The notes beneath the pieces are model-generated. The model was not told the origin of the DNA and did no database searches. It saw nothing but the letters and a program-made list of their open reading frames with translations. From a virus, in the IMG/VR virus record IMGVR_UViG_3300028837_001401, positions 1-61,086 of that record: a DNA stretch of 61,086 nucleotides; one strand, written 5' to 3'. The position numbers and the translations under genes were made by a program. Position 1 is the stretch's first letter; the number at the start of each line of letters is the position of its first letter. Shown here one piece after another: positions 40,139 through 57,203 of the stretch.

Positions 40139-40150
40139 GAAGACAAGTAT

Positions 40151-40226: not shown

Positions 40227-40262
40227 TTATCTGTGTGCGAAAGGACAGAAAAGGGATGTTGA

Positions 40263-41855
40263 ATGTCTGAGATATTGACTGACGAGCAGTTTGGCGAGTT
40301 CATAGAGGCGGAACTTGCCTCTGCTCGGTTGACTGACTACGATGATTATAACAATATGTATTTTGGGAATTTCGATGCTCTGGATCTGCCGGCACATATC
40401 GAAGACTGCTTAAAGGTGGATCTGGCGACAAAATACAATATGTGTAAACCTGTGGTTGACACGAAGGTGCAGTATATTTGTGGTGCGCCTTTGTCAATCG
40501 AGGTCAAGACGGAGAGCAATGAGGAATTTGAGCAGACGGGAACACTTCCAGGTCAGGATGAGCGAAGTCGTGTGGAGGAGTTCCTGTATGGTGTATATAG
40601 AAACAACGGTCTCCTGTATCGAAACATGATCAAAGCCATCCGTGTGATGGCAAAGAAGGGTGACGTATTTGTCCGGGTTTGGTTTGATGAAGCGCCAAAG
40701 AACGTGATGCAGCGACTCTTTCAGAAGTTTAGCAATATGTTCAGGAGTGCTGATGCCCAGCAGCGTGAGTTTACTGACAAGTTCCAGATCCGTGTATTGA
40801 AGCCCGATGACTGCTTCCCGCGATACGAGTCTGACGACTACGAGTCATTGCAGTTCTGCGCTTTCGTATATACCGACTTCGATGAGCTGGAAGGCGAGAC
40901 ACGATTCGCTCAGGTGTGGTATCCTGAGCTGTTCCAGCTATTTGTCGAGAGGACGAAAATAGGGGGAAAGGAAACAGCGGAGCAGACAGAGGATGACAAA
41001 TACTGGGAGAAGCTAGAGGAGGATGAGAATCCCTACGGTTTCATCCCAATTATTCATATCAAAAATGGGATAGATGACACGGAGTTTGGCACAAGCGACC
41101 TCCATGTGATGCAGGATCTTCAGTACCTACTCGTGAAGACCGCCACCGATATGTGGCTCACGATGGACTATACTGCCTTCCAGAGAGTATTCATAACAGG
41201 AGCGATGACAAAGAGTGGGACAAAGTATGATGTCTCTCCTGGAACGGTTGTCGAGTTACCTGACAAGGATGCGAAGGTGATCATGGTGGAGGGCGGAAGT
41301 GTCGAGGGCTTCCTTGCCGCCATAAAGGAGCTCAAGTCTGCCATCTGCGAGGTGACACAGACCCCGCAGATCGCATTAGGAACGATTGAGAGTGGTGTAC
41401 CGTCCGGGTACGCTCTGAAAATACACTATCAGCCACTCGAAAATAAATGTAATGAGACGAAGGCGCTCCTGCAGGACGCCTTCCAGAGGGTGAATTGGAT
41501 GTTGTTTGCCATTGCTGCCGAGAATGGTGCTCCTGAGATCGGATTCTGGGACACGGAGATCCGGTTCCAGTCAGGTATACCTACTGATGATAAGATGTTG
41601 ACCGAAACTCTGGAAAAGCAGATCAACATGGAGATCAAGTCGAGAACGACAGCGATGCAGGAGATCGGGATCGAAGACATCGCCGCCGAGAAGCGACTGA
41701 TCGAGGCGGATTCGGAAGACATCTATGGTGGTGTGGAAGGTGACAGGGTGTTGGCAGAAGCTGAGGCACTCACGAGACAATTAGAGGAAGGCGGTATGCT
41801 GGAGGGTCTGATCGGCACGCCGAGACCAGAGGAAGTGGAGACGGAGACTGAGTAG
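40263..41855 (+). CDS. Portal protein
   Basis: 530 residues. YDDYNNMYFGNFDALDL, then VDLATKYNMCKPVVDTKVQYICGAPL, matches portal proteins of the SPP1 gp6 group; SDLHVMQDLQYLLVKTATDMWLTMDYTAF and GYALKIHYQPLENKC follow. Forms the dodecameric ring at the capsid vertex for DNA entry and exit. Acidic C-terminus. One-base overlap with the following methyltransferase. Confidence 0.85.
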   Translation: MSEILTDEQFGEFIEAELASARLTDYDDYNNMYFGNFDALDLPAHIEDCLKVDLATKYNMCKPVVDTKVQYICGAPLSIEVKTESNEEFEQTGTLPGQDERSRVEEFLYGVYRNNGLLYRNMIKAIRVMAKKGDVFVRVWFDEAPKNVMQRLFQKFSNMFRSADAQQREFTDKFQIRVLKPDDCFPRYESDDYESLQFCAFVYTDFDELEGETRFAQVWYPELFQLFVERTKIGGKETAEQTEDDKYWEKLEEDENPYGFIPIIHIKNGIDDTEFGTSDLHVMQDLQYLLVKTATDMWLTMDYTAFQRVFITGAMTKSGTKYDVSPGTVVELPDKDAKVIMVEGGSVEGFLAAIKELKSAICEVTQTPQIALGTIESGVPSGYALKIHYQPLENKCNETKALLQDAFQRVNWMLFAIAAENGAPEIGFWDTEIRFQSGIPTDDKMLTETLEKQINMEIKSRTTAMQEIGIEDIAAEKRLIEADSEDIYGGVEGDRVLAEAEALTRQLEEGGMLEGLIGTPRPEEVETETE

Positions 41856-43579: not shown

Positions 43580-44504
43580 ATATGTCGTATACTTACTAGC
43601 CGCCCGGGTGAGGGAATTGACCTTGCTCCAGAGTCAACAGGTGGTGATGGATCAGCTTCTCCTGGAGGCACATGAAGAGATCAGCCTGTATTTATCGAGA
43701 GCGGCACACGATATGGATTCACACATCAGGGTTGCGAAGATGATAGAGGTTCAGGCGCAGATCGAGGGAATGATGGATGGTGTGATCAATCAGATCCGTG
43801 ACGATATGATGAAGAACCTGACAATCTCCGCCAAGTATGCTGCTGATGGACGGGTTCTGGCAGGTCGAGCGTTCCTGAACGACGTAATGCCAGAGATGAG
43901 CGATATGGCGATGAGGATCTTTGCGACAGTGCCCGCCGATGCGGTCAGGGCAGCGGTGTCACGTTTAGTGCAGGCGAAGACGTTATCAGACAGGATATGG
44001 GATCTGAGGAAGTTCACACAGGACGCCATAGCGAAGACTGTGGCAAAGGGAATAATACAGGGAAAGTCAGCATACAGGCTCTCTAAGGAACTGGAGGGCT
44101 TTCTGAAGTTACGAGGTAAGGCATACAAAACATTCGATCAGAGGATGTCCAGTCTGTATAGCCCCTCATGGAAACAAGCGTGGAGAAAGAAAGGGAGTCT
44201 CTCATATAACGCCTATAGGCTAGCGAGGACAGAGATCAACCATGCGTTCCGAGAGGCTTCCATACTATCAGCAGAGCGGGCGCCGTGGGTAGATGGTGTG
44301 AAGTGGAATCTTAGCGCATCGCACCCGAAGCCCGATATTTGTGATGACTGGGCGACACAAGACATTGACGGTCTGGGGTCGGGGTGCTACTTACCGAGAA
44401 ACGCTCCTGTAGATCACCCGAATGGATTATGTTTTTTAACAGATGTGTTAGCCCCTCCGGAGGTAGCGCATCAGAGGATAATGGAATATGCGATGGCCGC
44501 CTGA
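43572..44504 (+). CDS. Head morphogenesis (SPP1 gp7 / Mu F-like) protein
   Basis: 310 residues, overlapping the methylase by 8 bases. Helical N-terminus; C-terminal RLARTEINHAFREASI, VDGVKWNLSASHPKPDICDDW and VDHPNGLCF give the RTE...C...HPxxxC pattern of the Mu F family. A minor capsid protein that rides with the portal. Confidence 0.78.
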   Translation: MNKYVVYLLAARVRELTLLQSQQVVMDQLLLEAHEEISLYLSRAAHDMDSHIRVAKMIEVQAQIEGMMDGVINQIRDDMMKNLTISAKYAADGRVLAGRAFLNDVMPEMSDMAMRIFATVPADAVRAAVSRLVQAKTLSDRIWDLRKFTQDAIAKTVAKGIIQGKSAYRLSKELEGFLKLRGKAYKTFDQRMSSLYSPSWKQAWRKKGSLSYNAYRLARTEINHAFREASILSAERAPWVDGVKWNLSASHPKPDICDDWATQDIDGLGSGCYLPRNAPVDHPNGLCFLTDVLAPPEVAHQRIMEYAMAA

Positions 44505-44519
44505 TGGTGGTTATTTTAT

Positions 44520-44551
44520 TTGACATATATGCTTACTTACAGACTAAGTAA
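44520..44551 (+). promoter_or_regulatory. CTTACTTA palindrome, copy 4, with an adjacent TTGACA
   Basis: Seven perfect pairs TTACTTA/TAAGTAA around CAGAC (44532-44551). A consensus -35-like TTGACA sits directly upstream at 44520-44525. The start codon of the scaffold gene follows at 44564. This may be a promoter with an operator between scaffold/capsid and upstream genes. Confidence 0.55.
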
Positions 44552-44563
44552 AAGGAGATAAAG

Positions 44564-45517
44564 ATGGCAAAGCCTGAAGGCGACACGCCAGTGACAAAGA
44601 TACTTAAAAGAGTGGTCAAGAGAGATGGGGGTCAGGATGATCCTGCCCCTGTGGAGACGGAAACTGAGGATGTGCCTGAGACGGATGAACCTGATCAGGA
44701 TGTTGATGAGACAGAAGACGCCGAGCCTGATGTGGAAACAGAGGATGTCTCTGATGAGGACTCCGAAGATGACCCAGCCGGTGAGGCGATAGATGCCGAG
44801 GTGGATAAGCCTGACGATGAGGATGAGAGTGAGGGTGACGCTGACGAAACGCAGACACAAACCTACTCTCCGGAATACGTGAAGAAGTTGCGGGAGGAGG
44901 CCAAGAGACGCCGTCTGGAGGCGACGAAGGCAAAAGACAAACTCGCTGAGCTTGAGTCGAAGCAAAAAGAGGCGAGGAAAAAAGCCGAACGGGCGAAGAT
45001 GGATGAGGTCTCTCGGTTACAGGCAGAACTCAAGGAAAAGGATGAGCAACTGGAGGTTCTGGAACTGGGCATCACACAGGTGGCGAAAGAGAATGCTGTC
45101 ATCACTAAAGCAACACAGATGGGGTTCAGGAACGCCAAAGATGCCGTGATTCTGTTGAGCAATGTAATGGACGATCTGGAACTGTCAGAGGACGGTGAGG
45201 TTGATCCGATAGAGCTTGAGGAAGCATTATCGAACTTAGCCGTGGAGCGCCCATACCTCATCGAAGACAAACCTAAGGCGGTCGTGAGTAAGAAAGTGGT
45301 AGTTTCGGCTGATCGAAAAGGGGAGGACTCCAAACGGAAGGCCTCAAGTTCGAGAAAGTCGAAAGATAAGGAAATTGACGATCAACTTACAAAGGAAATA
45401 ATTGAGGCTAATGCCAAAGGAGACGGACACACTGCGTTTGCGAAAACGTGGGAGCGCCGGCTCCGGAGGGCGGGGAAGTTCGGAAACCCCATCTGGCAAG
45501 GCCGCAAGATAACATAA
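44564..45517 (+). CDS. Capsid scaffolding protein
   Basis: 317 residues after AAAAGGAG. A long acidic N-terminal half (Asp/Glu/Thr-rich, about 20-100), then a coiled coil (KKLREEAKRRRLEATKAKDKLAELE) to about 190, and a basic C-terminus. This charge pattern and the position just before the capsid gene are typical of phage scaffolds, which bind capsid subunits through the basic end and leave the head. Confidence 0.82.
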   Translation: MAKPEGDTPVTKILKRVVKRDGGQDDPAPVETETEDVPETDEPDQDVDETEDAEPDVETEDVSDEDSEDDPAGEAIDAEVDKPDDEDESEGDADETQTQTYSPEYVKKLREEAKRRRLEATKAKDKLAELESKQKEARKKAERAKMDEVSRLQAELKEKDEQLEVLELGITQVAKENAVITKATQMGFRNAKDAVILLSNVMDDLELSEDGEVDPIELEEALSNLAVERPYLIEDKPKAVVSKKVVVSADRKGEDSKRKASSSRKSKDKEIDDQLTKEIIEANAKGDGHTAFAKTWERRLRRAGKFGNPIWQGRKIT

Positions 45518-45534
45518 ATGGAGTGAGAGTATAA

Positions 45535-46656
45535 ATGGCGATTGCAGGTCTGGCACGCACGTATGATCAAAGTACAGCGGCAAGGGAGGATCTCGAAGAC
45601 ACAATAGCGATGATCAGCCCGACTGATACACCGTTGTTCGCTCTGATGAACCGTGCGCCAGTAAGTAATATCAAACACGAATGGCTCGAAGACGCTCTGC
45701 GTGGTATGAACGACACACTGTCTGCCGCTATGGCGAGCGATGGCGGTAGTGTTACGATGTTTGTCAACAACGGAGCTGCCCGGTGGCCGATTGCATCGAA
45801 CTTCCCGATCCTTCTAAGGATCGATGAGGAGATAATGCTGGCTACAGCGAGAACGGGTAGCAATGTCACAGTTACGAGAGACTATAACAGCACAGGAACA
45901 GCGGCTCACTCAAGTTCTGCCCGGGTTGAGATTATATCCGACAAAGGACTTGAAGGAGCAGACGCCCGGTCGGCGTTTGCACAGACCCGCACACGACCGT
46001 ATAACGCAAGTGAAATATTCGATGCGACAATACAGGTCTCCGGGTCGGAGCAGGCGACGATCCTGGCGGGTATATCTGGAACTGAGGCGGACTACCAAGC
46101 CGAGCAGCGTCTCAAAGAGATGAAGATTCAGCTTGAGAAAGCCATCATTACAGGAACGCTTGTCGATGGAACAACAACCACCTACAGGTCGATGGGTGGA
46201 TTGTGGCATTTCATCAGCACGAACAAAGCTAACGCCGTTGGGGCAGCCATAACTGGTGACGATATCGAAGCGGATGCCAGGGCATGTTTTGACGCCGGCG
46301 GAAATCCGTCGGTGATAATGTGCAACAGTTACCTTGCCGAGCGGATAACGCACATCTATAACGACAGGATCAGGTCTGAGCCCGAGACGATTCTCGGCGG
46401 TGCCCAGATTCAGCGTATCCGACTGCCTGTGGCAGGCATGGGTGAATTGGCGATAATTGTCAATAGATGGTGTCCGCCTTATGAATATTATATCCTGTCA
46501 ATGGATAAGATATTCCTGGGTCGGTTCAGACCGTTTTTCTTCCAGGATCTTGCGCTGACTGGTGACGCTGTGAAGTCACAGATCATCGGTGAGTATACGC
46601 TGATCGTGAAAAACGAGAAGGCACATGCCCGCAGGTACGGACTAGCGCTTAGCTAA
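45535..46656 (+). CDS. Major capsid protein (SU10 family, HK97 fold)
   Basis: 373 residues. ISPTDTPLFALMNRAPVSNIKHEWLEDAL opens the SU10-type domain; SGSEQATILAGISG, MCNSYLAERIT and IVNRWCPPYEYYILSMDKIFLG follow. Directly after the scaffold gene. It has the HK97 fold and makes the icosahedral shell. The start is ATG 45535; the ribosome site is GGAGTGAG. Confidence 0.9.
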   Translation: MAIAGLARTYDQSTAAREDLEDTIAMISPTDTPLFALMNRAPVSNIKHEWLEDALRGMNDTLSAAMASDGGSVTMFVNNGAARWPIASNFPILLRIDEEIMLATARTGSNVTVTRDYNSTGTAAHSSSARVEIISDKGLEGADARSAFAQTRTRPYNASEIFDATIQVSGSEQATILAGISGTEADYQAEQRLKEMKIQLEKAIITGTLVDGTTTTYRSMGGLWHFISTNKANAVGAAITGDDIEADARACFDAGGNPSVIMCNSYLAERITHIYNDRIRSEPETILGGAQIQRIRLPVAGMGELAIIVNRWCPPYEYYILSMDKIFLGRFRPFFFQDLALTGDAVKSQIIGEYTLIVKNEKAHARRYGLALS

Positions 46657-46716: not shown

Positions 46717-47109
46717 ATGGGTAATTACGGATCGAGTTTCTGCCCCAGGTTGAATAGGCTCGGTGTGACGAGTCAGCTTATAGTGACTGGGGTAATTGGC
46801 ACACGACATCTGGCGGCTGGTGCTGTCACTAATGCAAAAGTTCCCGACGGTGGGCTTACCCTGGGTACTGCAAAATCAGGGTCAACGTGTGGTAAGTTGG
46901 ATGCGGCGTATGTGGAATTCAGCACAGCCGCCAGCAATACACAGGTTACTGTGGCTCATGGACTCGGTAGAGCCCCCGTGGGTATGGAAGTTGTGATGCA
47001 GGACAAACCGGGTGTGCTCTATAGAGGTACAGCGGCCGCTTTCACAGCGACAAATATGTGGGTAAAGACAAACATGGGAACGGTTGTCTTTACACTCAGA
47101 GTATTCTAA
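46717..47109 (+). CDS. Probable capsid-decoration or minor structural protein
   Basis: 130 residues. Low-complexity N-terminus and a beta-rich C-terminus (EFSTAASNTQVTVAHGLGRAPVGMEVVM). It sits directly after the capsid gene, in the usual place for a decoration or fibre-like protein. The ribosome site is in a hairpin. Family not recognised. Confidence 0.55.
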   Translation: MGNYGSSFCPRLNRLGVTSQLIVTGVIGTRHLAAGAVTNAKVPDGGLTLGTAKSGSTCGKLDAAYVEFSTAASNTQVTVAHGLGRAPVGMEVVMQDKPGVLYRGTAAAFTATNMWVKTNMGTVVFTLRVF

Positions 47110-47111
47110 TA

Positions 47112-47130
47112 ATCCACCCACAAGGTGGAT
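47112..47130 (+). other. Hairpin after the structural gene
   Basis: ATCCACC (47112-47118) pairs with GGTGGAT (47124-47130) over a 5-base loop. It lies immediately after the stop, and forms a double-hairpin with the next one. Confidence 0.45.
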
Positions 47131-47137
47131 GATAAGG

Positions 47138-47180
47138 CCGCCTCTTTCCCGAACATGGAGAGAGGCGGTCGCTTTATTTC
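47138..47180 (+). terminator. Probable terminator
   Basis: CCGCCTCT (47138-47145) pairs with AGAGGCGG (47161-47168), followed by TCGCTTTATTT. The U-tract is interrupted, so termination would be partial, letting less transcription through into the glycan genes. Confidence 0.5.
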
Positions 47181-47193
47181 AGGGAGACGATGT

Positions 47194-48636
47194 ATGAATG
47201 CAGACAACGAGCAAATGATGCAAATGATTTCCAGAAACACTGTCCGAGCGAGAATTATGGACTGGATAGACAACTTCAAGGCAAACTTACCGAGGGTGCA
47301 TGGGGGTTACGGGATCGCCTCGATGCTTGCCTGTTTTGGAGGCAAAGTACCCTGCATAATAGTTGGGAGCGGCCCGACTCTGGACTGGAACATAAAGGAT
47401 CTCAAGGATGTAGGCAACAGGGCGTGCATCCTGTGTTGTGACAGTGCTACCAAGGCGCTTCTGAAGGAAGGCATCCGCCCGCATATAGTTGTAACAACGG
47501 ACTCAAAAGGGCGTGTAGCGGACTTCATTGACGGGTGTGATGGTCTCAATTTCGTGGTTGACACGTTTGTTCATCCACGGACTATCGAAGCGATAGAGAA
47601 GAACGAGAACAGCAGGGTCTACTTCTACAACACGATGGATGTGGAGATGTGTCCATTCACATCGCATTTGAATGACAAGACGGGCTTTATCGGCAATCTA
47701 GGGACAGGTGGGTGTGTGGCAACGACCGCATGGTTCTTAGCGGTCGCTTTCTTAACAGCGGAGCCTGACATCCTTGTGGGTCTTCCGGAGAGTTTCTACG
47801 ATCCTGGGAGGATGTATGCCACTGTTGTGGAGAACACTGTCAGCACAGAGCCATACCAGACTATTCCAGACATGGTGGAGGACATCCACGGCAGGACGTG
47901 TTACACGTATCCTGCACTGTTATCCTTCGCTCACTGGTTTCATGACTCTTTCAAGAGAATTCCGACAGTGCATATCAACGCATCGGAGGGCGGCATACTG
48001 AAAGATCATATACTCAACATGCCACTCCGGCATGTTGTTGACAAGTATTTGACAAAAGAATATGACATCGAGGGGATGCTCTTTGCGAAGGAAATACAAG
48101 CGCAGGGGATCATTGACAGGGTTCTAGCAAGTCAGCCTGCGGGTGTGGATCTGCCTTTCGATATTCAAGCCGAAAAGCCACTGATGACAATTTTACTGGA
48201 CGGGCCGTCACTGATGAACCTCGCTCTCCGGATGGGATCTGAGGTAAATGAGGTCAAGAATCGGGTAGAGCGACTGCGTGGTCTGGGTTTGAATATAGAT
48301 GAAGGTGTTACTCAGCAAGGGACTGAGGATGGGGTAGTAAACGTACCGACGTTCCAGCTTATTGGGTTACAGGGTGATATTGAGCAGCCCAATGAGCGAG
48401 AGGTCATCGAGGTAACACTTCCGTCAGCACAGGTCGGTCAGGTTGGTCAGGAGACGACTCAACTGGTGGGAGCGAAGCCAGTAGATCAGGAGACTGAGGT
48501 AGCTGAACCAGATGACAATCGGGTTCAGATCAACACAGTGCTTAGGGAAGTCATAGGAGCGAGAAATAATGTCGAAGAGGAGAAAAGCTCTTGCAGTGAT
48601 ATGTGCGAGGGCGGGCAGCAAGGGTCTGAAGGATAA
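47194..48636 (+). CDS. DUF115 / Maf-like (MptE-like fold) glycosyltransferase candidate
   Basis: 480 residues from ATG 47194. CIIVGSGPTLDWNIKDLKDV, CCDSATKALLKEGIRPHIVVTTD and FIGNLGTGGCVATTAWFLA match DUF115, the family of the motility accessory factors (Maf) that transfer nonulosonic acids to flagellin in several bacteria. It precedes the CMP-nonulosonate synthetase, so a sialyl- or legionaminyl-type transferase role is attractive. The C-terminal 80 residues are acidic and repetitive. The target may be a virion protein. Confidence 0.72.
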   Translation: MNADNEQMMQMISRNTVRARIMDWIDNFKANLPRVHGGYGIASMLACFGGKVPCIIVGSGPTLDWNIKDLKDVGNRACILCCDSATKALLKEGIRPHIVVTTDSKGRVADFIDGCDGLNFVVDTFVHPRTIEAIEKNENSRVYFYNTMDVEMCPFTSHLNDKTGFIGNLGTGGCVATTAWFLAVAFLTAEPDILVGLPESFYDPGRMYATVVENTVSTEPYQTIPDMVEDIHGRTCYTYPALLSFAHWFHDSFKRIPTVHINASEGGILKDHILNMPLRHVVDKYLTKEYDIEGMLFAKEIQAQGIIDRVLASQPAGVDLPFDIQAEKPLMTILLDGPSLMNLALRMGSEVNEVKNRVERLRGLGLNIDEGVTQQGTEDGVVNVPTFQLIGLQGDIEQPNEREVIEVTLPSAQVGQVGQETTQLVGAKPVDQETEVAEPDDNRVQINTVLREVIGARNNVEEEKSSCSDMCEGGQQGSEG

Positions 48637-49282
48637 GAACTTTGCGAAGGTGCAGGACAAGCCACTGATCTGGTATTCATGCAACGCCGCTCTATCGGCG
48701 AAAAGTCTCTCCAGGACACTGGTGTCGAGTGACAGTGATGTCATACTGTCACTCGCCGCCGAGTATGGTGTGGAAACCCTGAAGCGACCCGATCAGTATG
48801 CGACTGACACGTCTCGTATCGAGGAGGCGATGATCCATGCTCTCGAATTCGCTGAGAGCGATGGTGAGCGATATGACTTGGTTGCCTTACTACAGAACTC
48901 CAGTCCAATGAGGATCGGGCAGGACATTGATGGTGCGGTGGCTCAGATGGGTGCGTGTTGGGATGAAGCCGACTCGGTAATGTCTGTGAACACGGTGATC
49001 GGCAGTCACCCTCTGAAGATGAAGAAAATCACTGATGGGGGTCTCCTGGTGCCGTTCATTGACAACCATGGTCTTTACAGGCGACAGGACTACCCGCCTG
49101 TGTTTGAAGAAAATGGTTGTGTGTATGTGGTCAAGAGATCATATCTGTTGGAACACCACAGGGTAATCGCTGAGAGATGTGTACCGTATTTCATCGACCC
49201 TGTCAGGTCGTTTGATGTGCATGACGATAACGACTTGATTGTTGTAGAGGCACTCATGAAAAAAAGGGGTGTGGGATTATAG
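48569..49282 (+). CDS. neuA: CMP-N-acetylneuraminate (nonulosonate) cytidylyltransferase
   Basis: 237 residues, overlapping the DUF115 gene by 68 bases. CARAGSKGLKDKN (nucleotide loop), LVSSDSD, LLQNSSPMR and FEENGCVYVV then SFDVHDDNDL are the family blocks. It joins a nine-carbon sugar to CMP. It lacks the C-terminal phosphatase domain of some bacterial NeuA; a separate KdsC-like phosphatase lies 2.5 kb downstream. Confidence 0.92.
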   Translation: MSKRRKALAVICARAGSKGLKDKNFAKVQDKPLIWYSCNAALSAKSLSRTLVSSDSDVILSLAAEYGVETLKRPDQYATDTSRIEEAMIHALEFAESDGERYDLVALLQNSSPMRIGQDIDGAVAQMGACWDEADSVMSVNTVIGSHPLKMKKITDGGLLVPFIDNHGLYRRQDYPPVFEENGCVYVVKRSYLLEHHRVIAERCVPYFIDPVRSFDVHDDNDLIVVEALMKKRGVGL

Positions 49283-49309
49283 TAACAAATTACACACGGA
49301 GGAAAACAA

Positions 49310-49516
49310 ATGATGTCGGATCTTGGGTTGACTAAAGTGAGGCAGCAAAGAGGGTTCAGGCTCTCCCCTGACGAGGTTATGCCGTTGATCAATGCAATAA
49401 CCGGCCTGATGATAGATCCTGAACTGGATTCGAGTGTCCATTTTGGCGCAAAGGGTGAGGCTATCAAAGTTACACGTAAGGGTGAATATTTCGAGTTACT
49501 CCGGAGAGGTGAGTAA
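49310..49516 (+). CDS. Hypothetical protein
   Basis: 68 residues after an A-rich GGAGGAAAAC site. RLSPDEVMPLINAITGLMIDPEL then a beta segment. Not recognised. Confidence 0.5.
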   Translation: MMSDLGLTKVRQQRGFRLSPDEVMPLINAITGLMIDPELDSSVHFGAKGEAIKVTRKGEYFELLRRGE

Positions 49517-49519
49517 AAA

Positions 49520-49756
49520 ATGGGTTTACTGCTTTATATCATTGTGGGTGGCGTATTTGCCATTCTGGGGTATTTGACAAAGATAGTGAAGGACGCGAGA
49601 AAGAAGTTGAAAAAAGAGGATGAAATACCTGAGAAATACCAAACAGGTCGCTGGGAGACGGATCTGGGTAATGGTAGGAAAAGGATCACAAGGCGGATAA
49701 ACATAAATGACTTGGTGGATAACCCTGAACTGGCAAAAACTCTATTTGAGGACTAA
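49520..49756 (+). CDS. Small membrane protein with a basic C-terminal domain
   Basis: 78 residues: an N-terminal hydrophobic span (LLLYIIVGGVFAILGYLT), a basic patch, and a soluble end. Orientation would put the end in the cytosol. Function unknown. Confidence 0.55.
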   Translation: MGLLLYIIVGGVFAILGYLTKIVKDARKKLKKEDEIPEKYQTGRWETDLGNGRKRITRRININDLVDNPELAKTLFED

Positions 49757-49758
49757 TA

Positions 49759-49941
49759 ATGATTGACTTTTATTTCTATTCAACACACGCACTGTTTGCC
49801 CGTGTGAATACAGGACATTTATTTCCTTATGCAGATCCAGCGGATCTGCGCGAACAGGTGGATTCACCTGTATTGGATGCCGAAGGAAGGAAAGAGCTTT
49901 TTCTGTCTGGAGGAGAAAGATGGCTAATGTCTTACTCGTGA
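49759..49941 (+). CDS. Small hypothetical gene rich in hairpins
   Basis: 60 residues, YFYSTHALFARVNTG...; overlaps the next gene by 22 bases. The DNA holds two perfect hairpins: GCAGATCC/GGATCTGC (49831-49838, 49842-49849) and CAGGTG/CACCTG (49855-49860, 49865-49870). It may be a structured leader of the radical SAM gene instead of a gene. Confidence 0.4.
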   Translation: MIDFYFYSTHALFARVNTGHLFPYADPADLREQVDSPVLDAEGRKELFLSGGERWLMSYS

Positions 49942-51269
49942 ATATGGTGATCCGAGAATTTGCCCCGCCGAATAACGTTCCATTGGGGCCTTGCTACATC
50001 GCCTCGTATCTGGAGAGTCATGGGCACAGGGTGGATATATGCGACCTGAACGGGTTGAGATGGATCGACCAGAGACGTGAGAAATGGCTCAGCGAGACGG
50101 TGAAGGGCAAGAAATATGACTTTGTGGGTCTTTCGGGTCTCATAGTGACAGCGAAGGAGCACAGGCGTGTTCTGGACTTCCTATATGAGATCAAGAGAGA
50201 ACTCGGAGATCCTTTCTTTGTAGCAGGTGGGGGTCTTGCGACGAGTGTACCTCAGTTTGTGTTCCAGTACCTCCCTGAGATCGACATAGTGGCTATCGGC
50301 GAGGGTGAGGAGACCATGCTGGACATCGCTGATGGGATGGACTGGGAGGACATACCAGGTATTTGGTGGAAACACCCCCCTGATGAGGTGTATGTCAAGA
50401 ACTCTCCACGGCCTTTCATTGGGGATCTGGACAGCCTCCCGTTTCCAGCATGGGACAAAGTTCCCGTCGATAAGGTGTATGTGGGACACCCGATCTGGGG
50501 TGGTATTGTGAAGAACTCCAGCGGGATCAACTACAAAGCAAAGAAGTCGATGAACACAGTGGTCAGCCGTGGATGCCCGTATGAATGCGGATTCTGTGCT
50601 CATGGTGTCATCTGGGGGAAGCGATACAGAATGCGGTCGCCTGGGAATGTTATCGCCGAGATGCGGGAGTTAAAGCGGCGGTATGGGATCGACTTTGTGG
50701 GCTTCGTTGACGATAACACAACGGCGATCAGGCGATGGACTATGGAGTTCTGTGATCAGCTAATCGACTCTGGGCTGGACATCAAGTGGGGGTGTTCTGC
50801 CCGTGTGAATGCCGTCGATCCTGAGATGCTCAAGTTGATGAAACAGGCGGGTTGTGAATGGATAGGATACGGTGTTGAGTCGGCGTGTCAGAAGACGCTG
50901 GATGCAATGAATAAGCAGACGACTCCTGAGATGGCAGCGAGAGCGATCAGGTGGACACGAGAAGCGGGGATGTGGGCGAATACTACATATATAATAGGAT
51001 ACGAGGGAGAGACTGAGGAAGACTTCAAACAGACAGCGGATTTCATGATAGATAATAAAGCCGTCAACTCGGTATTCTACGCCACGGCGTATCCGGGCAC
51101 ACCATTCTACGAGCGAAACAAAGAGAAGATCCTAGAGGTCTATGGGAGTGAGAAGGAATACATATTGAGTCTGGGCGATGCGACGGAGTTCACTGTCAAT
51201 TTCTCTGAGATGTCCACGGAACGGATGAAGGAACTCCGTGCAAAAGCGATGGCGGGAGAGAGAATATGA
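49920..51269 (+). CDS. B12-binding-domain radical SAM enzyme, copy 2
   Basis: 449 residues behind GGAGGAG. Cobalamin-type domain (GPCYIASYLESHGHRVDICDL; FVAGGGLATSVPQF; IVAIGEGEET), then SRGCPYECGFCAHG at about 217-228 (C-x3-C-x2-C) and GYGVESACQKTLDAMNKQ. It lies between the cytidylyltransferase and the phosphatase/NeuB genes, so it probably modifies the nonulosonic sugar (for example C-methylation, deoxygenation or epimerisation). The substrate is not shown by the sequence. Confidence 0.88.
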   Translation: MANVLLVNMVIREFAPPNNVPLGPCYIASYLESHGHRVDICDLNGLRWIDQRREKWLSETVKGKKYDFVGLSGLIVTAKEHRRVLDFLYEIKRELGDPFFVAGGGLATSVPQFVFQYLPEIDIVAIGEGEETMLDIADGMDWEDIPGIWWKHPPDEVYVKNSPRPFIGDLDSLPFPAWDKVPVDKVYVGHPIWGGIVKNSSGINYKAKKSMNTVVSRGCPYECGFCAHGVIWGKRYRMRSPGNVIAEMRELKRRYGIDFVGFVDDNTTAIRRWTMEFCDQLIDSGLDIKWGCSARVNAVDPEMLKLMKQAGCEWIGYGVESACQKTLDAMNKQTTPEMAARAIRWTREAGMWANTTYIIGYEGETEEDFKQTADFMIDNKAVNSVFYATAYPGTPFYERNKEKILEVYGSEKEYILSLGDATEFTVNFSEMSTERMKELRAKAMAGERI

Positions 51270-51538
51270 GACTAGAGAACTGGTGGGCTGTGTATCAAGC
51301 GGGGTGGTTTTTCATCAGGATAGAGGTGGAGCCGAATCCCATACAACACGGGGCAACTGTCAGGATGGACACCAAGGTAAAAACATGGATCGACAGAAAA
51401 CTGTATATCAAATACCTCATTCTTGGCAAAATCATGAGGTTTTTGGGTTTTTCGTTTGTTCTGCAGCCGAGGCAGATTGACGGGTCAAGCTACCGATGGA
51501 GTGAGGAGTCGGTGGGAGAGCTATACTATGATCTTTGA
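51266..51538 (+). CDS. Hypothetical protein
   Basis: 90 residues overlapping the radical SAM gene by 4 bases. WWAVYQAGWFFIRIEVEP and a hydrophobic, basic middle (KLYIKYLILGKIMRFLGFSFV). Not recognised. Confidence 0.5.
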   Translation: MRLENWWAVYQAGWFFIRIEVEPNPIQHGATVRMDTKVKTWIDRKLYIKYLILGKIMRFLGFSFVLQPRQIDGSSYRWSEESVGELYYDL

Positions 51539-51776
51539 TATGAGCAGGGACATCCGACATACTGGTGAGCATGAGGGTCTCTGGACAGGAAACGAGAGGG
51601 GGCATTCTCTATGCGATCATCCCGCGATGGAGGATCTCAGGGAACTGAGAGAGCTGAGGGGCAGGATGGAGAAGATCCGTGAGGCGGTGTCGAGTCTCTG
51701 GCAGATCAGCAAGAAGATAGATGATAAAGAGGTTCAGCATCAAGTGCAGTCAATTCTTTCGAGGATCGGGAAATGA
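51528..51776 (+). CDS. Hypothetical helical protein
   Basis: 82 residues from ATG 51528. Has a His/Cys-containing front part (GHSLCDHPAM) and a coiled coil (DLRELRELRGRMEKIREAV). Overlaps the next gene by 4 bases. Not recognised. Confidence 0.5.
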   Translation: MIFDMSRDIRHTGEHEGLWTGNERGHSLCDHPAMEDLRELRELRGRMEKIREAVSSLWQISKKIDDKEVQHQVQSILSRIGK

Positions 51777-52273
51777 ATGAGATTCGAGCGATATGTTCAG
51801 ATGTTGATGGAGTGCTCACTGATGGTGGGTACATATACATGCCTGTCAAGAGCCGTGGTTTCGATGGGCAGGTTGCCATAGGCAAGAAATTCAACTCCCG
51901 TGATGCTGCCGCAGCCAAGGTCTGGAGAGATGTGGGTAATGAGTTATTCATAGTGACAGCGGGTGATGATAATGTCACAAGGCAGAGGATGACACGATAC
52001 ACCCCGTATTGCTACTGGGGTCAGGTAGACAAAGCGGCAACGGTGTTAGAAATCAGCGAGACGTTTGACATCCCTGTCTCTCAGATGGCTTTCATCGGTG
52101 ACGATCATCTGGACATACCAGCCATGGTGGTCAAGGATCTGGGTCTCAAGGCATGTCCAGCGGATGCAGCAGCACGGGTGATGCGACTGGCGGATTATGT
52201 CTGTATGCGACCAGGTGGGAATGGTGCGCTGGCGGAATTGATAGAGCACCTTTTGTATCTTGATATGGGGTAA
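51773..52273 (+). CDS. KdsC-like HAD sugar-phosphate phosphatase
   Basis: 166 residues. SDVDGVLTDGG (nucleophile Asp), KKFNSRDAAAAKVW, GDDHLDIPAM and the end RPGGNGALAELIEH are all signatures of KdsC and of the phosphatase domain fused to some NeuA. It should remove phosphate from a phosphorylated keto-sugar such as KDO 8-P or a nonulosonate 9-P. Together with NeuB and NeuA it suggests a route through a 9-phosphate. Confidence 0.88.
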   Translation: MNEIRAICSDVDGVLTDGGYIYMPVKSRGFDGQVAIGKKFNSRDAAAAKVWRDVGNELFIVTAGDDNVTRQRMTRYTPYCYWGQVDKAATVLEISETFDIPVSQMAFIGDDHLDIPAMVVKDLGLKACPADAAARVMRLADYVCMRPGGNGALAELIEHLLYLDMG

Positions 52274-52287
52274 TAAATAGGAGACGG

Positions 52288-53007
52288 ATGCCTAGAAAGA
52301 AAGACCCCAAGAAAAAATATACAACGCAATGCTTAAATTGTGGGACAGATATTGAAGGCTGGGTTTGCCGCCCACGAAAATTCTGCTCTTTATCATGCAG
52401 CACTGCATATCGAAATAGGGGATCGGTATGTAGCGAAGAAACCAAAAGAAAAATCGGAGAGGCTAATAAAGGGCGTTTAATAGGGAAACAAAATCCTTCC
52501 CAACGACCCGAAGTCAGGAAAAAAATAAGCCTGGCGCTTAAAGGACGAGAAACGCCGTGGAATTATAAGCAGAGAGGGGTTAAGCGTCCACAGACTTCGC
52601 GGGCTTTGGTCAAAGCCTATAAGGACGGCAGAGCAAGAATTGACAAGTCTGCTTGGGGAGCGGGGGGTTATAGAGAAGATTTGGGTCAATATTTTAGAAG
52701 TAGGTGGGAAGCGAATTTTGCAAGGATATTGTCTCTTTGGGGGTTAAGTTGGCAATACGAACCTGCTATTTTCTTGCTAGATATTTCGGGTGTGGAGTAT
52801 ACATATCGCCCTGATTTTTATTTACCCAACGAAGGGCATTACTATGAAGTCAAGGGTTACTGGACAAATATTGCAAAGAAGAAGTTTGAAGCATTTAGCA
52901 AGAAACACGATGTAACATTGATTGATCAAGAAAAATATACAGAATTGGCATCTTTGTTTAGAAGCAAAATACCCAATTGGGAGAATAGCGATGGACACCC
53001 TTATTGA
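52288..53007 (+). CDS. Homing endonuclease, NUMOD3 plus PD-(D/E)XK type
   Basis: 239 residues. Zinc knuckle CLNCG...CSLSCS, then repeated DNA-binding NUMOD3-like motifs (SEETKRKIGEANKG; PEVRKKISLALKG), then RSRWEANFARIL, EYTYRPDFYLPN and YEVKGYW, the D...E-x-K nuclease of I-Ssp6803I-type enzymes. It overlaps NeuB by 17 bases and sits between two sugar genes. A mobile gene that has invaded the cassette. Confidence 0.85.
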   Translation: MPRKKDPKKKYTTQCLNCGTDIEGWVCRPRKFCSLSCSTAYRNRGSVCSEETKRKIGEANKGRLIGKQNPSQRPEVRKKISLALKGRETPWNYKQRGVKRPQTSRALVKAYKDGRARIDKSAWGAGGYREDLGQYFRSRWEANFARILSLWGLSWQYEPAIFLLDISGVEYTYRPDFYLPNEGHYYEVKGYWTNIAKKKFEAFSKKHDVTLIDQEKYTELASLFRSKIPNWENSDGHPY

Positions 53008-53857
53008 AAGAGATCTTATTATGGTGGCTGAAGCAGGAATAAATCATGGAGGAAAACTGGAGACGGCACTGGAACTGATCAGCCTGGCGAAGTGGGCAGG
53101 GTTCGATTACGTGAAGTTCCAGAAACGTGATCCGTTATTGTATCCTGAGAAGCCGTATAACTCCCCGCTCTTGGGGCAGACGACTTACAGGAAGCACAAG
53201 CAGTTTTTGGAGTTGAGTTATCAGGATTATGAGGCAATCGACGTCTACTGTAAGGAGATCGGGATCGAATGGTTCGCATCTGTGTTTGACAAGCCCTCCG
53301 TGGACTTTATGAAGGTGTTCAACCCACCGTTCTGGAAACTGCCCTCACCGGCGATATTTAACAAAGATCTGGTGAGGTATGTTGCAGAGCAGGGTGGGAA
53401 AGTGATCATGAGCACAGGTATGTCCGAACTTCCCGAAGTTATCCGTGCGGTGAACATTCTCAGGGCGTATGGGAAGCATGAGGGAGACTGGTTGTATATT
53501 CTCCACTGTTGTTCCGAATACAAGACGCCGAAAGAGCATGTGAACTTGAATTATATCCCCACGTTGGTGAAGCTGTTTCCTTATGCAAGGGTCGGATACT
53601 CCAGCCACGATGCGGGTGTGCCCTTCTCGGTGGGTGCGGTAGCGAAGGGTGCGGAAATGATCGAGGTGCATGTAACACTTGACAGGACAATGAAGGGATC
53701 GGATCACAAGGCTTCACTTGAGCGGGAGGAGATAGAACGGGTAGTGAGGCATTGTCAAGACACGTATATTGCCCTTGGTGATGGTGATGTGAAGCACTTC
53801 TACCCAGAGGAGAAGCGGATCAGGGAAAAAGTGATGCAAACAGCGGGGAGCAAGTAA
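52991..53857 (+). CDS. neuB: NeuB-like nonulosonic acid synthase (no SAF domain)
   Basis: 288 residues from ATG 52991 (GGGAGA upstream). AEAGINHGGKLETALELISLAK, FDYVKFQKRDP, VDFMKVFNPPFWKLPS, IMSTGMSE and GYSSHDAGVP are NeuB-family blocks, including the metal- and PEP-site residues. NeuB condenses PEP with a six-carbon sugar to form a nine-carbon acid. Typical NeuB is about 340 residues with a C-terminal antifreeze-like SAF domain; that domain is missing here. It could also be a KDN- or 8-carbon-forming homologue. Confidence 0.85.
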   Translation: MDTLIERDLIMVAEAGINHGGKLETALELISLAKWAGFDYVKFQKRDPLLYPEKPYNSPLLGQTTYRKHKQFLELSYQDYEAIDVYCKEIGIEWFASVFDKPSVDFMKVFNPPFWKLPSPAIFNKDLVRYVAEQGGKVIMSTGMSELPEVIRAVNILRAYGKHEGDWLYILHCCSEYKTPKEHVNLNYIPTLVKLFPYARVGYSSHDAGVPFSVGAVAKGAEMIEVHVTLDRTMKGSDHKASLEREEIERVVRHCQDTYIALGDGDVKHFYPEEKRIREKVMQTAGSK

Positions 53858-54237
53858 TGGCGAAGACTACACAAACACAGTTTAAGTATTTCCAGAAGTG
53901 TTGTGACGAATATATTGAGTTTTTCGGTCTGAAGAACTGGACGATATATTACCAATTATACGATTTCGAGGATCGTAGCCTTGCCGAGGTGCACTGGAAA
54001 ATCCCCGGCAATGTCGCGACGATATATTTAGCCGCACAGGATGATAGCGACGTCGCCCCCTTTACAATGGAGCAGTTAAGAGCGACGGCACTACACGAGA
54101 TTGTCCACCTTGTCTTAACACCGCTATATGATTGTGCGACAAACAGATACACTTCAGAGACAGAAGTAGATACCGCTTGTGAGCAAGCGGTTAGAAATAT
54201 TTGCAATGTAATCACGTTTCCGAGGGCAAAGAAATGA
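53857..54237 (+). CDS. Putative zinc metalloprotein with HExxH
   Basis: 126 residues overlapping NeuB by one base. LRATALHEIVHLVLTPLYDC has HEIVH, the zincin active-site motif, preceded by beta strands and followed by a Glu-rich helix (SETEVDTACEQAV). This resembles small SprT-like phage proteins. It may act on host or virion proteins; whether it is a protease is uncertain. Confidence 0.55.
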   Translation: MAKTTQTQFKYFQKCCDEYIEFFGLKNWTIYYQLYDFEDRSLAEVHWKIPGNVATIYLAAQDDSDVAPFTMEQLRATALHEIVHLVLTPLYDCATNRYTSETEVDTACEQAVRNICNVITFPRAKK

Positions 54238-54692
54238 TCATAGCAGTTGACTTTGACGGGACGTTTATAGAGAAACCAATCAGGTACACGGATCTAATCA
54301 CACAGTTGAGGCGGGCCGGGAATGTGGTGGGCATCCTTACGGGCCGCACGATGTGGACACAAGGAAGCGATGAGGAGATCCTTGCCCATTACAGGTGTCG
54401 GGTAGATTTCTTCTGGAACACGGGTCTCTTGAACAGGTACGAGCTGGAGATCTGTGACTGGATAAGCGACGAGAAAATAAGCATGGAGAGGGATCTGGTT
54501 ATCTCTATGTTTAAGGCGCGGATATGTAAAGAGCGGAGGGTTGCGATCCTTATAGACGATGCAGCCGACAAGATCAGGATGTTCGACTGTGGGGAGACTA
54601 TCGTTTTGAAGAGCCCGACGGAGTTCAACAAGGTTGTGCCGAGGTGGGAAAACCACCTCTTGACATACAACGAAGAGGGTCAGGAACTATGA
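54234..54692 (+). CDS. HAD-like phosphatase
   Basis: 152 residues from ATG 54234 (ATGA overlap). AVDFDGTFIEKP, ILTGRTMW and ILIDDAADKI give the DxDGT, T/G-R and DD motifs of small HAD enzymes. A second HAD in the sugar cassette; possibly a GmhB- or nucleotidase-like partner, or a general phage HAD. Confidence 0.7.
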   Translation: MIIAVDFDGTFIEKPIRYTDLITQLRRAGNVVGILTGRTMWTQGSDEEILAHYRCRVDFFWNTGLLNRYELEICDWISDEKISMERDLVISMFKARICKERRVAILIDDAADKIRMFDCGETIVLKSPTEFNKVVPRWENHLLTYNEEGQEL

Positions 54693-55372
54693 GAGCACTT
54701 CCAGAAAAGGGTTTGATTGTATCGTGCTATTTGGAGAGCATGAGATACTGCGAGAGGGACTTCATTTCAGCCGTGGCGCACGTTCCCGGTGTGGTGGGTC
54801 TCCGGGTGGAGGGCCTGGAAAACATCGAGTTTGCCCGTAGGATCGCTCCTGAAAAGTTCATTATCGGACTGGTGAAGGTAAAGCAGGGAGCGAATGGGAC
54901 TGCCATCACTCCGAGTCTTGAAGATGGGTATAATGTGCATCATGCAGGGGCGGACATGATAGCCACAAGCCATCTCCTGGAGTGGACACACCCGCTGGGT
55001 GGTGAAATATGCACCCCGCACGGTTTCGCCGTGCCGTTCAGGATAATGGCGGACATGAGTGGGGAGACGTTCAGGGAACTCTGTGAGCGGAGTGAATTGC
55101 TCCTGGCATCTTTCCGGAGGGAGATAGACGAGAGAAATCTGGTGTTTGCGACAACGTTTGAAGACTATGGGATCGGGTTGTTACAGAACATCAAAAAGGC
55201 GTTTCCCTGTGCTCTGGTGAATCTGGAGGGCGGGGTCTGGAATCCTGAGATGCTAGTGGACGCCTTCCGCCATGGTGCGGATTATGTGACAATCGGGAAG
55301 GCGATCAATGATCCGAGGTTCATCACGGAGATGCTTGTGAGCGAATGTAACAGGATGATAGCGGGTGAATAG
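54689..55372 (+). CDS. NanE-like N-acylglucosamine-6-phosphate 2-epimerase
   Basis: 227 residues from ATG 54689 (ATGA overlap). GLIVSCYLESMRYC at the start, VVGLRVEGLENIEFARRI, FIIGLVKVK, HHAGADMIATSH, and NLEGGVWNPEMLVDAFRHGADYVTIGKAINDP at the end follow the TIM-barrel order of NanE. NanE interconverts ManNAc-6-P and GlcNAc-6-P. Here it may supply the six-carbon substrate of NeuB. The catalytic Lys and Glu are plausible but not proven. Confidence 0.7.
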   Translation: MRALPEKGLIVSCYLESMRYCERDFISAVAHVPGVVGLRVEGLENIEFARRIAPEKFIIGLVKVKQGANGTAITPSLEDGYNVHHAGADMIATSHLLEWTHPLGGEICTPHGFAVPFRIMADMSGETFRELCERSELLLASFRREIDERNLVFATTFEDYGIGLLQNIKKAFPCALVNLEGGVWNPEMLVDAFRHGADYVTIGKAINDPRFITEMLVSECNRMIAGE

Positions 55373-55821: not shown

Positions 55822-56172
55822 ATGGCGAAAAGACGTTTCAAGTTAGGGACAGCAGGCGGACATGGTGGAGTTGGGTGGATAGGAAAGAAGTATTATGATG
55901 AGTCATGTGTGGTGGAATTGGATGAGGACGTTCCCGAAGAGATGGAGCAGATCAGGCTACTGGAGCGAGCGGGCTCCGTGGTTTCGGAGATAGATGCGTC
56001 CGAGGGTGTTGCTCCTCCGGAGGAGGAAATTCCACTGCCTGAGTTGGATGACATGAGCATCAATGAGCTTCGGAAGTTTGGCAGGTCGAATGCTCTCCCT
56101 GTGACAAATTCCATGAAAAAGGATGAGCTGATCGAGTTGATCCGTGGGGGTCTAACACAAGAGGGAAGTTAA
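55822..56172 (+). CDS. Structural-region protein with Rho-N/SAP-like end
   Basis: 116 residues. A Gly-rich start, an acidic middle, and MSINELRKFGRSNALPVTNSMKKDELIELIR, a helix-extended loop-helix of the SAP/Rho-N type found at the end of several phage head and tail proteins. DNA- or RNA-contact is possible. Confidence 0.5.
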   Translation: MAKRRFKLGTAGGHGGVGWIGKKYYDESCVVELDEDVPEEMEQIRLLERAGSVVSEIDASEGVAPPEEEIPLPELDDMSINELRKFGRSNALPVTNSMKKDELIELIRGGLTQEGS

Positions 56173-57203
56173 TGAAAGTTCTGGGAGTAGGGCACTGGGG
56201 AGCGATAGGTGATCAGGTTTATGCCATCCCCGCATTAGCGGAATTGAGGAAGCATTATGTTTTCCTTGTTGGCTATTTGAAATGGAACAAAGGGATCACT
56301 GAGGAGATATTCAGGAACTCCGGGCTGTTTGACAAATACATCTGGCGCTACCCTGAGATGGATACATGGACGGTTGATCAGGAAAAAGCATACTTGCTTG
56401 AGGAGTTGATGGACGTGGATATGCACGATGAGGGATCGACGTTCATAAACTTCCGGAAGGTCGTTCCTGGTGTGTATATTCACCATGCGCGGTGGCCTTC
56501 TAAAGAAGACCCGGATCCGGGGTTCTGGTGGTCATACGAGAAAAAGCGGAACATGGCTTTTGACGTGAACTTTTTCGAGGTGTTTATGGAGTTTGCGGGT
56601 TTGAAGCCCCGGAAGGGTGCGAGACCGTTTTTTGTTACTGACTATGGGGAACGGGAGTGGCTGGACGGATTCAAGCACCGATACGGTATTCCCAGAGATG
56701 CCTTTCTGTTGATGTGGCAATGGGAGGGTAGTTCTATGATCAAGCAGTATCCGCACGTCCAGGACGCCCTCCTGCCAGTGATGGAGGCGCACGATGACAT
56801 ATATCTGATTGGTCTGGGAGACAAGAGAACACAAAACGTCTCCTGGAGAGGTGCGGGTGCGAGGTTCATCAACTTTGCAGGGCGTTTGAAGTGGCGACAG
56901 AGTATGTTACTGACGAGCATTGCCGACTGTTATGTGGGGCCTGAGACGGGCATCACTGTTGCGGCACAGGCGTTCCCACGGACGCCGAAGATATTACTTG
57001 CGACGCACACCTATGGGCATCACATCACCTGTGGGTCTGACACGGTTGTCATACAGTCAGAGGCGAAGTGCTCCCCCTGTTTCAACATTGTCGATGATTG
57101 CATCAGGGAGGGTGAGCATCCGTGGGCGATGTGTGTGGGAAAGATACCTCCTGAAAGGATAGCGGAGGAAATAGAGAAGGTCTACGAAAGGAGACGGGAT
57201 TAA
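56172..57203 (+). CDS. Glycosyltransferase family 9 (heptosyltransferase-like)
   Basis: 343 residues. GVGHWGAIGDQVYAIPALAELRKHY is the N-terminal phosphate/acceptor loop of GT9, with the family D (DxV). The C-terminal half has IADCYVGPETGITVAAQAF, the donor-side GxxTG-like loop, then an odd Cys-rich tail (KCSPCFNIVDDCIREG). GT9 enzymes transfer heptose to LPS core. Its location between structural genes suggests a virion or surface target and fits a heptose made by the enzymes at 17514-23978. Confidence 0.78.
   Translation: MKVLGVGHWGAIGDQVYAIPALAELRKHYVFLVGYLKWNKGITEEIFRNSGLFDKYIWRYPEMDTWTVDQEKAYLLEELMDVDMHDEGSTFINFRKVVPGVYIHHARWPSKEDPDPGFWWSYEKKRNMAFDVNFFEVFMEFAGLKPRKGARPFFVTDYGEREWLDGFKHRYGIPRDAFLLMWQWEGSSMIKQYPHVQDALLPVMEAHDDIYLIGLGDKRTQNVSWRGAGARFINFAGRLKWRQSMLLTSIADCYVGPETGITVAAQAFPRTPKILLATHTYGHHITCGSDTVVIQSEAKCSPCFNIVDDCIREGEHPWAMCVGKIPPERIAEEIEKVYERRRD

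Follow-up and report, generated by a model that had tools for sequence, protein, structure and literature searches.

Related glycosylation systems

A phosphorylated route to sialic acid or KDN is known from animals (NANS and NANP) and from Bacteroides thetaiotaomicron (KDN-9-P synthase and phosphatase). The O-glycosylation of flagellin by Maf (pfam01973) uses a NeuB-KdsC-NeuA-Maf-type set, which in Motiliproteus sediminis (locus L094) lies directly 5' of flagellin in the row NeuB, pyruvyl transferase, KdsC, NeuA, Maf, flagellin and FlaG. To our knowledge, self-made nonulosonic acid plus its CMP form has been described for no phage. A published description of a phage nonulosonate pathway was not found in the literature searched, and the one paper there that touched on nonulosonic acid as well as phage virions names the acid in a reference only. 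Glycans on phage structural proteins, namely on the capsid and tail tube of mycobacteriophage virions, are described in a summary given in PMC12619734.

The DNA analysed here (the window) comprises the 61,086 nucleotides of IMG/VR virus record IMGVR_UViG_3300028837_001401. Between 47194 and 55372 it carries a cassette that shares the NeuB-KdsC-NeuA-Maf-type set, and its NeuB was 44% identical to that of M. sediminis. In contrast to the flagellin system, the phage set follows a capsid gene, flagellin is absent, the transferase is without the Maf N-terminal domain (PF20157), which is present in the L094 Maf, and NanE, B12-radical SAM, HAD and SprT-like genes are added. NanE, NeuB, KdsC and NeuA together fit the formation of an acid-9-phosphate followed by dephosphorylation, as in the phosphorylated route, but NeuB lacks the SAF domain, the set is phage-encoded and the radical SAM enzyme is extra. 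The window phage differs from the mycobacteriophages, as far as that account goes, in encoding a whole predicted donor pathway. With somewhat better than even confidence, we read the cassette as a phage-encoded, flagellin (Maf)-type system of nonulosonic-acid protein glycosylation that is directed at the virion.

Gene content and organization of the cassette

The gene upstream of the cassette (45535 to 46656, + strand) encodes an SU10-type major capsid protein (PF17236, 1e-71; PHROG 1328, major head protein). It corresponds to the capsid gene of the earlier note, and its product is a candidate target. Just 3' of it, a 130-aa small protein (46717 to 47109, + strand) gave a weak PHROG tail-fibre match (E=9e-4); judged by its position it is possibly a decoration or fibre protein and a candidate acceptor. 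The position next to the capsid is by itself no proof of a capsid target. A terminator-like hairpin on the + strand (47136 to 47170; 14-bp stem, then GCTTTATTTC; fold z = -5.1 for 47110 to 47196) stands between the capsid genes and the cassette, and this separation counts against the proposed system.

The seven genes named in the earlier note were all found on the + strand in the order given there, with profile support for each except the HAD protein, which was recognized by motifs and a weak PHROG match. The first is a putative CMP-nonulosonate glycosyltransferase, DUF115/Maf-like and extended by a long C-terminal tail (47194 to 48636; PF01973, 7e-27; PseD, 2e-16), followed by a NeuA/PseF-type CMP-acid synthetase (48569 to 49282; PF02348, 6e-15; PseF TIGR03584, 3e-27, under its cut-off). 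The ORF list then contains a 78-aa small protein with a hydrophobic N-terminus (49520 to 49756, + strand), for which a search for homologues gave none. Next are a B12-binding radical SAM enzyme (49920 to 51269; B12-binding, 2e-14; radical SAM, 2e-25; cluster motif CPYECGFC) and a KdsC-type HAD phosphatase near KDN-9-phosphate phosphatase (51773 to 52273; TIGR01670, 2e-24; NF058599, 4e-22; both under the curated cut-offs). The NeuB-type synthase without SAF domain (52991 to 53857; PF03102, 2e-63), a small HAD-like protein (54234 to 54692; DFDGT, TGR and DD motifs; weak PHROG 4919) and a NanE-like sugar-6-phosphate epimerase (54689 to 55372; PF04131, 1e-10; PRK01130, 1e-17; PDB 3igs, 9e-8) complete the set. 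By eye, comparable small HAD genes adjoin NeuB in loci L006, L009, L011 and L083.

Several features had been overlooked in the earlier note: the hairpin, a second sugar island (see below) and two further + strand genes. One encodes a homing-type NUMOD3 plus PDDEXK endonuclease between KdsC and NeuB (52288 to 53007; profile matches), which is probably a mobile insertion into the cassette; its GC content of 0.418 was the lowest, while that of the main cassette enzymes (0.50 to 0.53) equalled that of the capsid genes. The other, between NeuB and HAD, encodes a SprT-like small protein (53857 to 54237; HEIVH motif) with a homologue in the L009 NeuB cassette. The description of the genes as mostly overlapping held for the DUF115-NeuA, endonuclease-NeuB and SprT-HAD-NanE joins, but the radical SAM gene is set off on its two sides by roughly 640 and 500 bases that contain small ORFs only. 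Starts were better supported, by ribosome-binding sites or stop-start overlaps, at 47194, 52991, 54234 and 54689.

Downstream, a distant glycosyltransferase-like protein (56172 to 57203, + strand; weak TIGR04372 match, E=2e-4; without Pfam or PHROG match) is possibly an extra transferase. It is followed by a putative head-tail adaptor at 58613 (E=0.12) and a putative tail terminator at 59892 (E=0.07). Both of these downstream head-tail assignments are weakly supported. Since 40024 to 46056 (6,033 bases) recurs with 100% identity in a contig of another IMG/VR record, the portal-capsid part has been assembled independently; the capsid-cassette junction lies outside that overlap.

Proposed route and catalytic residues

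The enzyme set was coherent as a route to a CMP-activated nonulosonic-type acid, as had been suggested, and the NeuB residues and the phosphatase family agreed with it. From it we infer substrate, product, acceptor and the radical SAM step as follows. NanE would supply a ManNAc-6-P-type sugar phosphate, and its condensation with phosphoenolpyruvate by NeuB would yield a nine-carbon acid in phosphorylated form. This phosphate would be stripped off by the KdsC-type phosphatase, after which NeuA would couple the acid to CMP. The DUF115/Maf-like enzyme would then transfer the acid to a virion protein, with Ser/Thr as the acceptor residues; candidates for this protein are the capsid, the 46717 protein and proteins of the neck or tail. 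Methylation or some other remodelling of the sugar would probably be the task of the B12-radical SAM enzyme, and the position in the head operon would have the cassette expressed together with the capsid.

Alignment of the catalytic residues, proposed earlier for NeuA and NeuB, gave a divided result. In NeuB, E15, K43, K117, H207 and H228 were all present and invariant or nearly so among 160 sequences. NeuA retains the ARAGSKG..KN motif, Q109 and D216, but His218 occupies the position of the second metal-ligand Asp, which is Asp in 78 of 79 aligned sequences. On this sequence evidence, the NeuA copy may therefore be weakened. The lost metal ligand, together with the inserted endonuclease gene of deviating GC, could also mean that the whole cassette is decaying or non-functional. 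This is improbable, as every reading frame is open, several are coupled, ribosome-binding sites are good and the motifs of the other cassette enzymes are retained; moreover, a divalent metal can also be bound by His, and His218 has an Asp as its neighbour.

NeuB stops after the barrel and has no C-terminal SAF/antifreeze-like domain, a trait that it shares with every one of the 89 viral relatives and with 68 of the 70 cellular ones; PDB chain 6ncs (290 aa) is comparably short. As the ManNAc site of the known NeuB enzyme takes its shape from the SAF domain, the phage enzyme may have a different substrate. The KdsC-type phosphatase is a cap-less HAD protein with DVDGV and GDDHLD motifs, and it matched 4hgq and 3e81, solved Bacteroides-type relatives. 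The TIM-barrel active site of NanE relies on conserved Lys, Glu, Asp and Arg. The LRVEG, GLVKVK, MADMSG and LEGG segments of the NanE-like protein aligned with 3igs in an overall weak match, and Gly replaces the Arg of the EGR motif. In the radical SAM enzyme both the B12-binding domain and the CxxxCxxC cluster were present, with all NCBIfam matches shown lying under cut-off. Relatives of it were encoded close to NeuB in L004, L008, L023, L024, L077 and L079.

The putative DUF115/Maf-like transferase

The likeness of the DUF115 protein to Maf was borne out in sequence and in fold. Besides its PF01973 match (7e-27) it has a GSGPT motif corresponding to GSGP of the MptE-like domain. Structure prediction gave an AlphaFold2 model of modest confidence (pLDDT 65.6), whose best PDB match was Maf 5mu5 (E=6e-8, 314 columns); archaeal HPPK/MptE ranked behind it. 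A function like that of MptE, a pterin diphosphokinase, was judged less probable in view of the greater length and strength of the Maf match. PF01973 is the central Maf domain and resembles the sialyltransferase Cst-II (PMC11339370). The model is consistent with a putative CMP-nonulosonate glycosyltransferase.

In a count that started from a tightened seed and checked the motif, ORFs with a GPS-type motif (DUF115/sialyltransferase-like) were present in 47 of the 89 viral NeuB loci (68 such ORFs versus 5.5 in shuffles). The first version of an iterated DUF115 profile had drifted into methyltransferases, and a four-sequence DUF115 alignment was too divergent for scanning.

Occurrence in other phages

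An alignment search with NeuB yielded 528 NeuB-coding stretches in IMG/VR. Head, neck, packaging or tail genes lay within 10 kb of NeuB in at least 16 of 89 viral loci and in none of 70 cellular loci, while with the limited probe set the majority of viral loci had no structural gene nearby. The cassette lies between SU10 capsid and SU10 adaptor in L072, between two head-tail adaptors in L006 and its relatives, between adaptor and connector in L010, and beside an adaptor in L038 and L083. It precedes the portal in L011, terminase and portal in L008 and the capsid in L075, and follows the portal in L020. L079 was left out as a capsid-adaptor case because its putative capsid gene matched an unknown PHROG only. 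In the capsid relatives L092 and L093, which are without a cassette, the capsid is followed by a 102-aa gene and then the adaptor-position gene. The structural location described in the earlier note is thus not unique but recurs in several unrelated head types.

These uncultured phage cassettes (e.g. L072, L006, L008, L079 and L083) have core genes like those of the window, often near head/neck genes. A NanE relative was searched for in them and not found, unlike in the window, and accessory methyltransferases, GT8 or GT29-like genes and GmhA were variable. Single-protein queries with DUF115, the radical SAM enzyme and the 56172 protein detected no relatives among viral contigs. Among 50,697 deposited phage records NeuB matched only two, both metagenomic or single-cell. 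A NeuA match in the phage set came from a contig that is bacterial by name (Moritella), and the B12-radical SAM gene of Streptomyces phage SF3 lies in an unrelated context. A functional description of the uncultured cassettes was not found in the literature searched. The earlier statement that no described phage with this arrangement was known agreed with the deposited records and the papers searched, but among uncultured phages cassettes of this type are widespread. Chances are about equal for and against nonulosonic-acid protein glycosylation by phages being a widespread and so far undescribed class, with Maf, NeuA and NeuB genes among capsid/neck genes of several unrelated head types giving the virion a sialic-like coat; in the window phage, B12-radical SAM chemistry would tailor it further, maybe into a new sugar.

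The acid sugar might instead be placed on surface glycans or flagella of the host during infection or lysogeny, for example for a superinfection block or receptor change. Phage seroconversion is a known strategy, related bacterial NeuB enzymes cluster with surface-sugar-type enzymes, and L094 has flagellin as a neighbour. The phage may also be temperate, considering a recombination-directionality-like protein (778 to 2751) and an integrase-like fragment seen by eye (28177 to 28905). A host target is nevertheless unlikely, because the late head/neck placement recurs across several unrelated head types, seroconversion genes are usually outside the late operon, and neither flippase nor O-antigen polymerase was seen within the cassette.

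If the virion-directed reading is true, phages do not borrow host glycans but themselves supply a sialic-acid-like coat sugar and the enzyme that transfers it. Coats of the sialic-acid type are known to influence how receptors are bound and how the immune system recognizes a surface, and such a coat could therefore alter virion sticking, persistence and recognition. The recurrence beside head/neck genes would be a simple sequence signature for finding such phages, and capsid-directed Maf-like enzymes would form a testable set, possibly useful for protein glycoengineering.

Second sugar island and other genes of the window

A second sugar island, on the + strand, spans 17.5 to 26.8 kb, 20 kb from the cassette. 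It encodes a nucleotidyltransferase plus PfkB kinase fusion (HldE/RfaE-like; 17484 to 19091), whose homologue adjoins NeuA/NeuB in L020, a radical SAM protein recognized by sequence match (19359 to 20516), the N-terminal (21508 to 22383; PF00456, 3e-41) and C-terminal (22797 to 23978; PF02779, 6e-29; PF02780, 2e-12) subunits of transketolase, and a second B12-binding radical SAM enzyme (25252 to 26754) that is 26% identical to the cassette copy. Any tie between this island and the cassette is one that we infer. With it, a different 3-deoxy-ulosonic acid could be made, still for attachment to the virion. The SAF-less NeuB would suit such a product; island genes adjoin NeuA/NeuB in L020, transketolase and radical SAM genes lie beside NeuA/NeuB in L079, and transketolase subunits were near 16 to 17 of 70 cellular NeuB loci, L134 additionally having an aminotransferase-like gene, SDR and KdsC. 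Against this, 20 kb separate the two islands in the window, the NanE-like epimerase points to ManNAc-6-P, and just 2 of 43 viral NeuB records had transketolase, which makes a different acid quite unlikely.

The window also encodes two DNA methyltransferases, and hypermodification of phage DNA can involve radical SAM enzymes as well as nucleotidyltransferases. The enzymes might thus serve DNA modification, or else a small molecule outside glycosylation. We consider this highly improbable: we know of no DNA role for NeuB, NeuA, KdsC or Maf-type enzymes, and the cassettes, with their Maf-like transferase, accompany head/neck and not replication genes. Two + strand genes outside the second island encode putative glycosyltransferases of the TIGR04372 family, both above the curated cut-off (15519 to 17003, 3.6e-56; 29375 to 30937, 2.4e-52); the two paralogues are 33% identical.

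Gene organization around the capsid gene

The window is an IMG/VR virus record of 61,086 bases. The genes for the terminase subunits (36656 and 37062) were located upstream of the portal gene, which was followed by genes for head morphogenesis, a scaffold, an SU10-type major capsid protein and, last, a protein of 130 aa. Between the latter and the sugar cassette (47194-55372, + strand) lay a strong terminator-like hairpin (47136-47170). The cassette coded in order for a DUF115/Maf-like protein, NeuA, a 78-aa protein, a B12-radical SAM enzyme, KdsC, an endonuclease with NUMOD3 and PDDEXK domains, NeuB, an SprT-like protein, a HAD protein and NanE. The endonuclease gene (52288-53007) had a lower GC content, overlapped the start of neuB and is likely a mobile, homing-type insertion. 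Genes downstream of the cassette resembled those for head-tail adaptors and tail terminators, but this flank is weakly supported because the matches reach E about 0.1. A distant glycosyltransferase-like gene lay beyond the cassette at 56172.

Conservation of catalytic residues

The catalytic residues of NeuB were present and were invariant or nearly so in an alignment of 160 sequences. A SAF domain was missing from this NeuB and, in the same comparison, from virtually the whole subfamily, including the cellular members. KdsC retained the motifs DVDGV and GDDHLD, and closely resembled KDN-9-phosphate phosphatases, and the radical SAM enzyme carried CPYECGFC. In comparison with 3igs, NanE retained four active-site positions (Lys, Glu, Asp and Arg).

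NeuA retained the nucleotide motif and the first metal-binding Asp, but had His218 (codon CAT at 49220) at a metal-ligand position. The other 78 sequences of the alignment, which came from 77 viral relatives and from the meningococcus, all had Asp there. The earlier note, which proposed a sialic-acid-like sugar on the virion, had named loss of catalytic residues in NeuA/NeuB as a finding that would refute it; NeuB kept its catalytic residues, while His218 of NeuA, judged from the alignment, comes close to such a loss.

Recurrence among viruses

A scan of IMG/VR viral contigs with a NeuB alignment gave 528 NeuB-coding stretches. Among 50,697 deposited phage records only two matched NeuB (one metagenomic, one single-cell), and none matched DUF115 or NanE. 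No description of a phage system of this type was found in the literature searched, which is not proof of novelty.

The arrangement with head or neck genes recurred. In viral locus L072, SU10-type genes, one for a capsid protein and the other for an adaptor, flanked a cassette of DUF115, NeuA, a DUF115-methyltransferase, a SPASM radical SAM protein and NeuB. Two head-tail adaptors enclosed the cassette in L006 and its relatives L003 and L005, an adaptor and a connector flanked NeuB and NeuA in L010, and an adaptor lay directly downstream of NeuB in L038 and L083. In L011, L008, L020 and L075 the cassette adjoined portal, terminase or capsid genes. Of the 89 viral loci, 16 or more had structural or packaging-type genes within 10 kb of NeuB, as against 0 of 70 cellular loci; because the probes were derived from a few of these phages, the former number is a lower bound and the comparison is not an independent test. 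Two more distant capsid relatives (L092 and L093, 30% identity) had the order capsid, 102-aa gene, adaptor-position gene, and lacked the cassette.

In the NeuB tree, viral sequences fell into mostly viral groups (8 changes versus 51 in shuffles). The NeuB of the window was placed, on a long branch and with its position unsure, in a set of 13 sequences, all of them viral, with L072, L008, L020 and L075 among its members.

Adjoining NeuB in L006, a protein (7800-8483) contained a GT29 sialylmotif-like stretch (weak match to Pfam PF00777, E=0.008), and similar genes adjoined NeuB in L003, L005 and L009; these are possible phage sialyltransferases. Locus L002 (583-2907) coded for a 774-aa GDP-mannose dehydratase-like protein with, by eye, an apparent intein.

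The DUF115 protein and its probable acceptor

The DUF115 sequence matched PF01973 and the PseD/Maf family, and its relevant PDB matches were Maf (5mu5) and archaeal MptE. With 16 sequences as input, AlphaFold2 gave a model with a mean pLDDT of 65.6 (80-90 in the core), whose best structural match was Maf (E=6e-8, 314 columns), followed by MptE/HPPK (about 200 columns). The Maf N-terminal domain is absent from this protein. The PF01973 domain of Maf resembles the sialyltransferase Cst-II, and Maf enzymes use CMP-nonulosonates as substrates (PMC11339370). On this evidence the protein is better read as a Maf-like transferase than as MptE/HPPK.

A bacterial counterpart was found in Motiliproteus sediminis (L094), whose NeuB was 44% identical to that of the window. 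Its genes were ordered NeuB, pyruvyl transferase, KdsC, NeuA, Maf (with both Maf domains), flagellin and FlaG; the four-enzyme core is common to both, but it adjoins flagellin in the bacterium and the capsid gene in the phage.

Most likely, the phage enzymes would build a CMP-activated nonulosonic-type acid, as family knowledge and the conserved residues suggest, and the Maf-like enzyme would attach it to a virion protein produced at the same time. Three observations suggest this transfer: a predicted fold like that of Maf, the parallel with flagellin, and the repeated head/neck placement; that the acid modifies the host surface is a live alternative to attachment to the virion.

A second sugar island

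A second island (17484-26754) coded for a nucleotidyltransferase-PfkB fusion, a radical SAM protein, N and C subunits of transketolase and a second B12-radical SAM enzyme. It was flanked by two putative TIGR04372 glycosyltransferases (15519-17003 and 29375-30937; 33% identical to each other), a family whose cut-off was passed by none of the 43 viral NeuB records searched. KdsC, NeuA and NeuB adjoined nucleotidyltransferase-kinase, radical SAM and transketolase genes in L020, and transketolase and radical SAM genes adjoined NeuA/NeuB in L079. The island may supply the cassette sugar or another one, which is the main reason why the chemical identity of the sugar is not fixed; a non-sialic ulosonic acid is a live alternative as the product.

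Among the 70 cellular loci, 16-17 also coded for transketolase subunits in the neighbourhood of NeuB. In L100, L102, L120, L134, L161 and others a bacterial cluster around a SAF-less NeuB contained the N and C subunits, in many cases with KdsC. The full readout of L134 and L161 contained an aminotransferase-like gene and an SDR in the cluster, which in L134 also held transketolase and KdsC.

Elsewhere in the window, a DUF5131 protein (8251-9633; PF07505, 8e-35) was encoded in the early region. The protein at 28177-28905 had, by eye, a YopX-like N-terminus and a tyrosine-recombinase-like C-terminus, a hint of a temperate lifestyle, intact or decayed.
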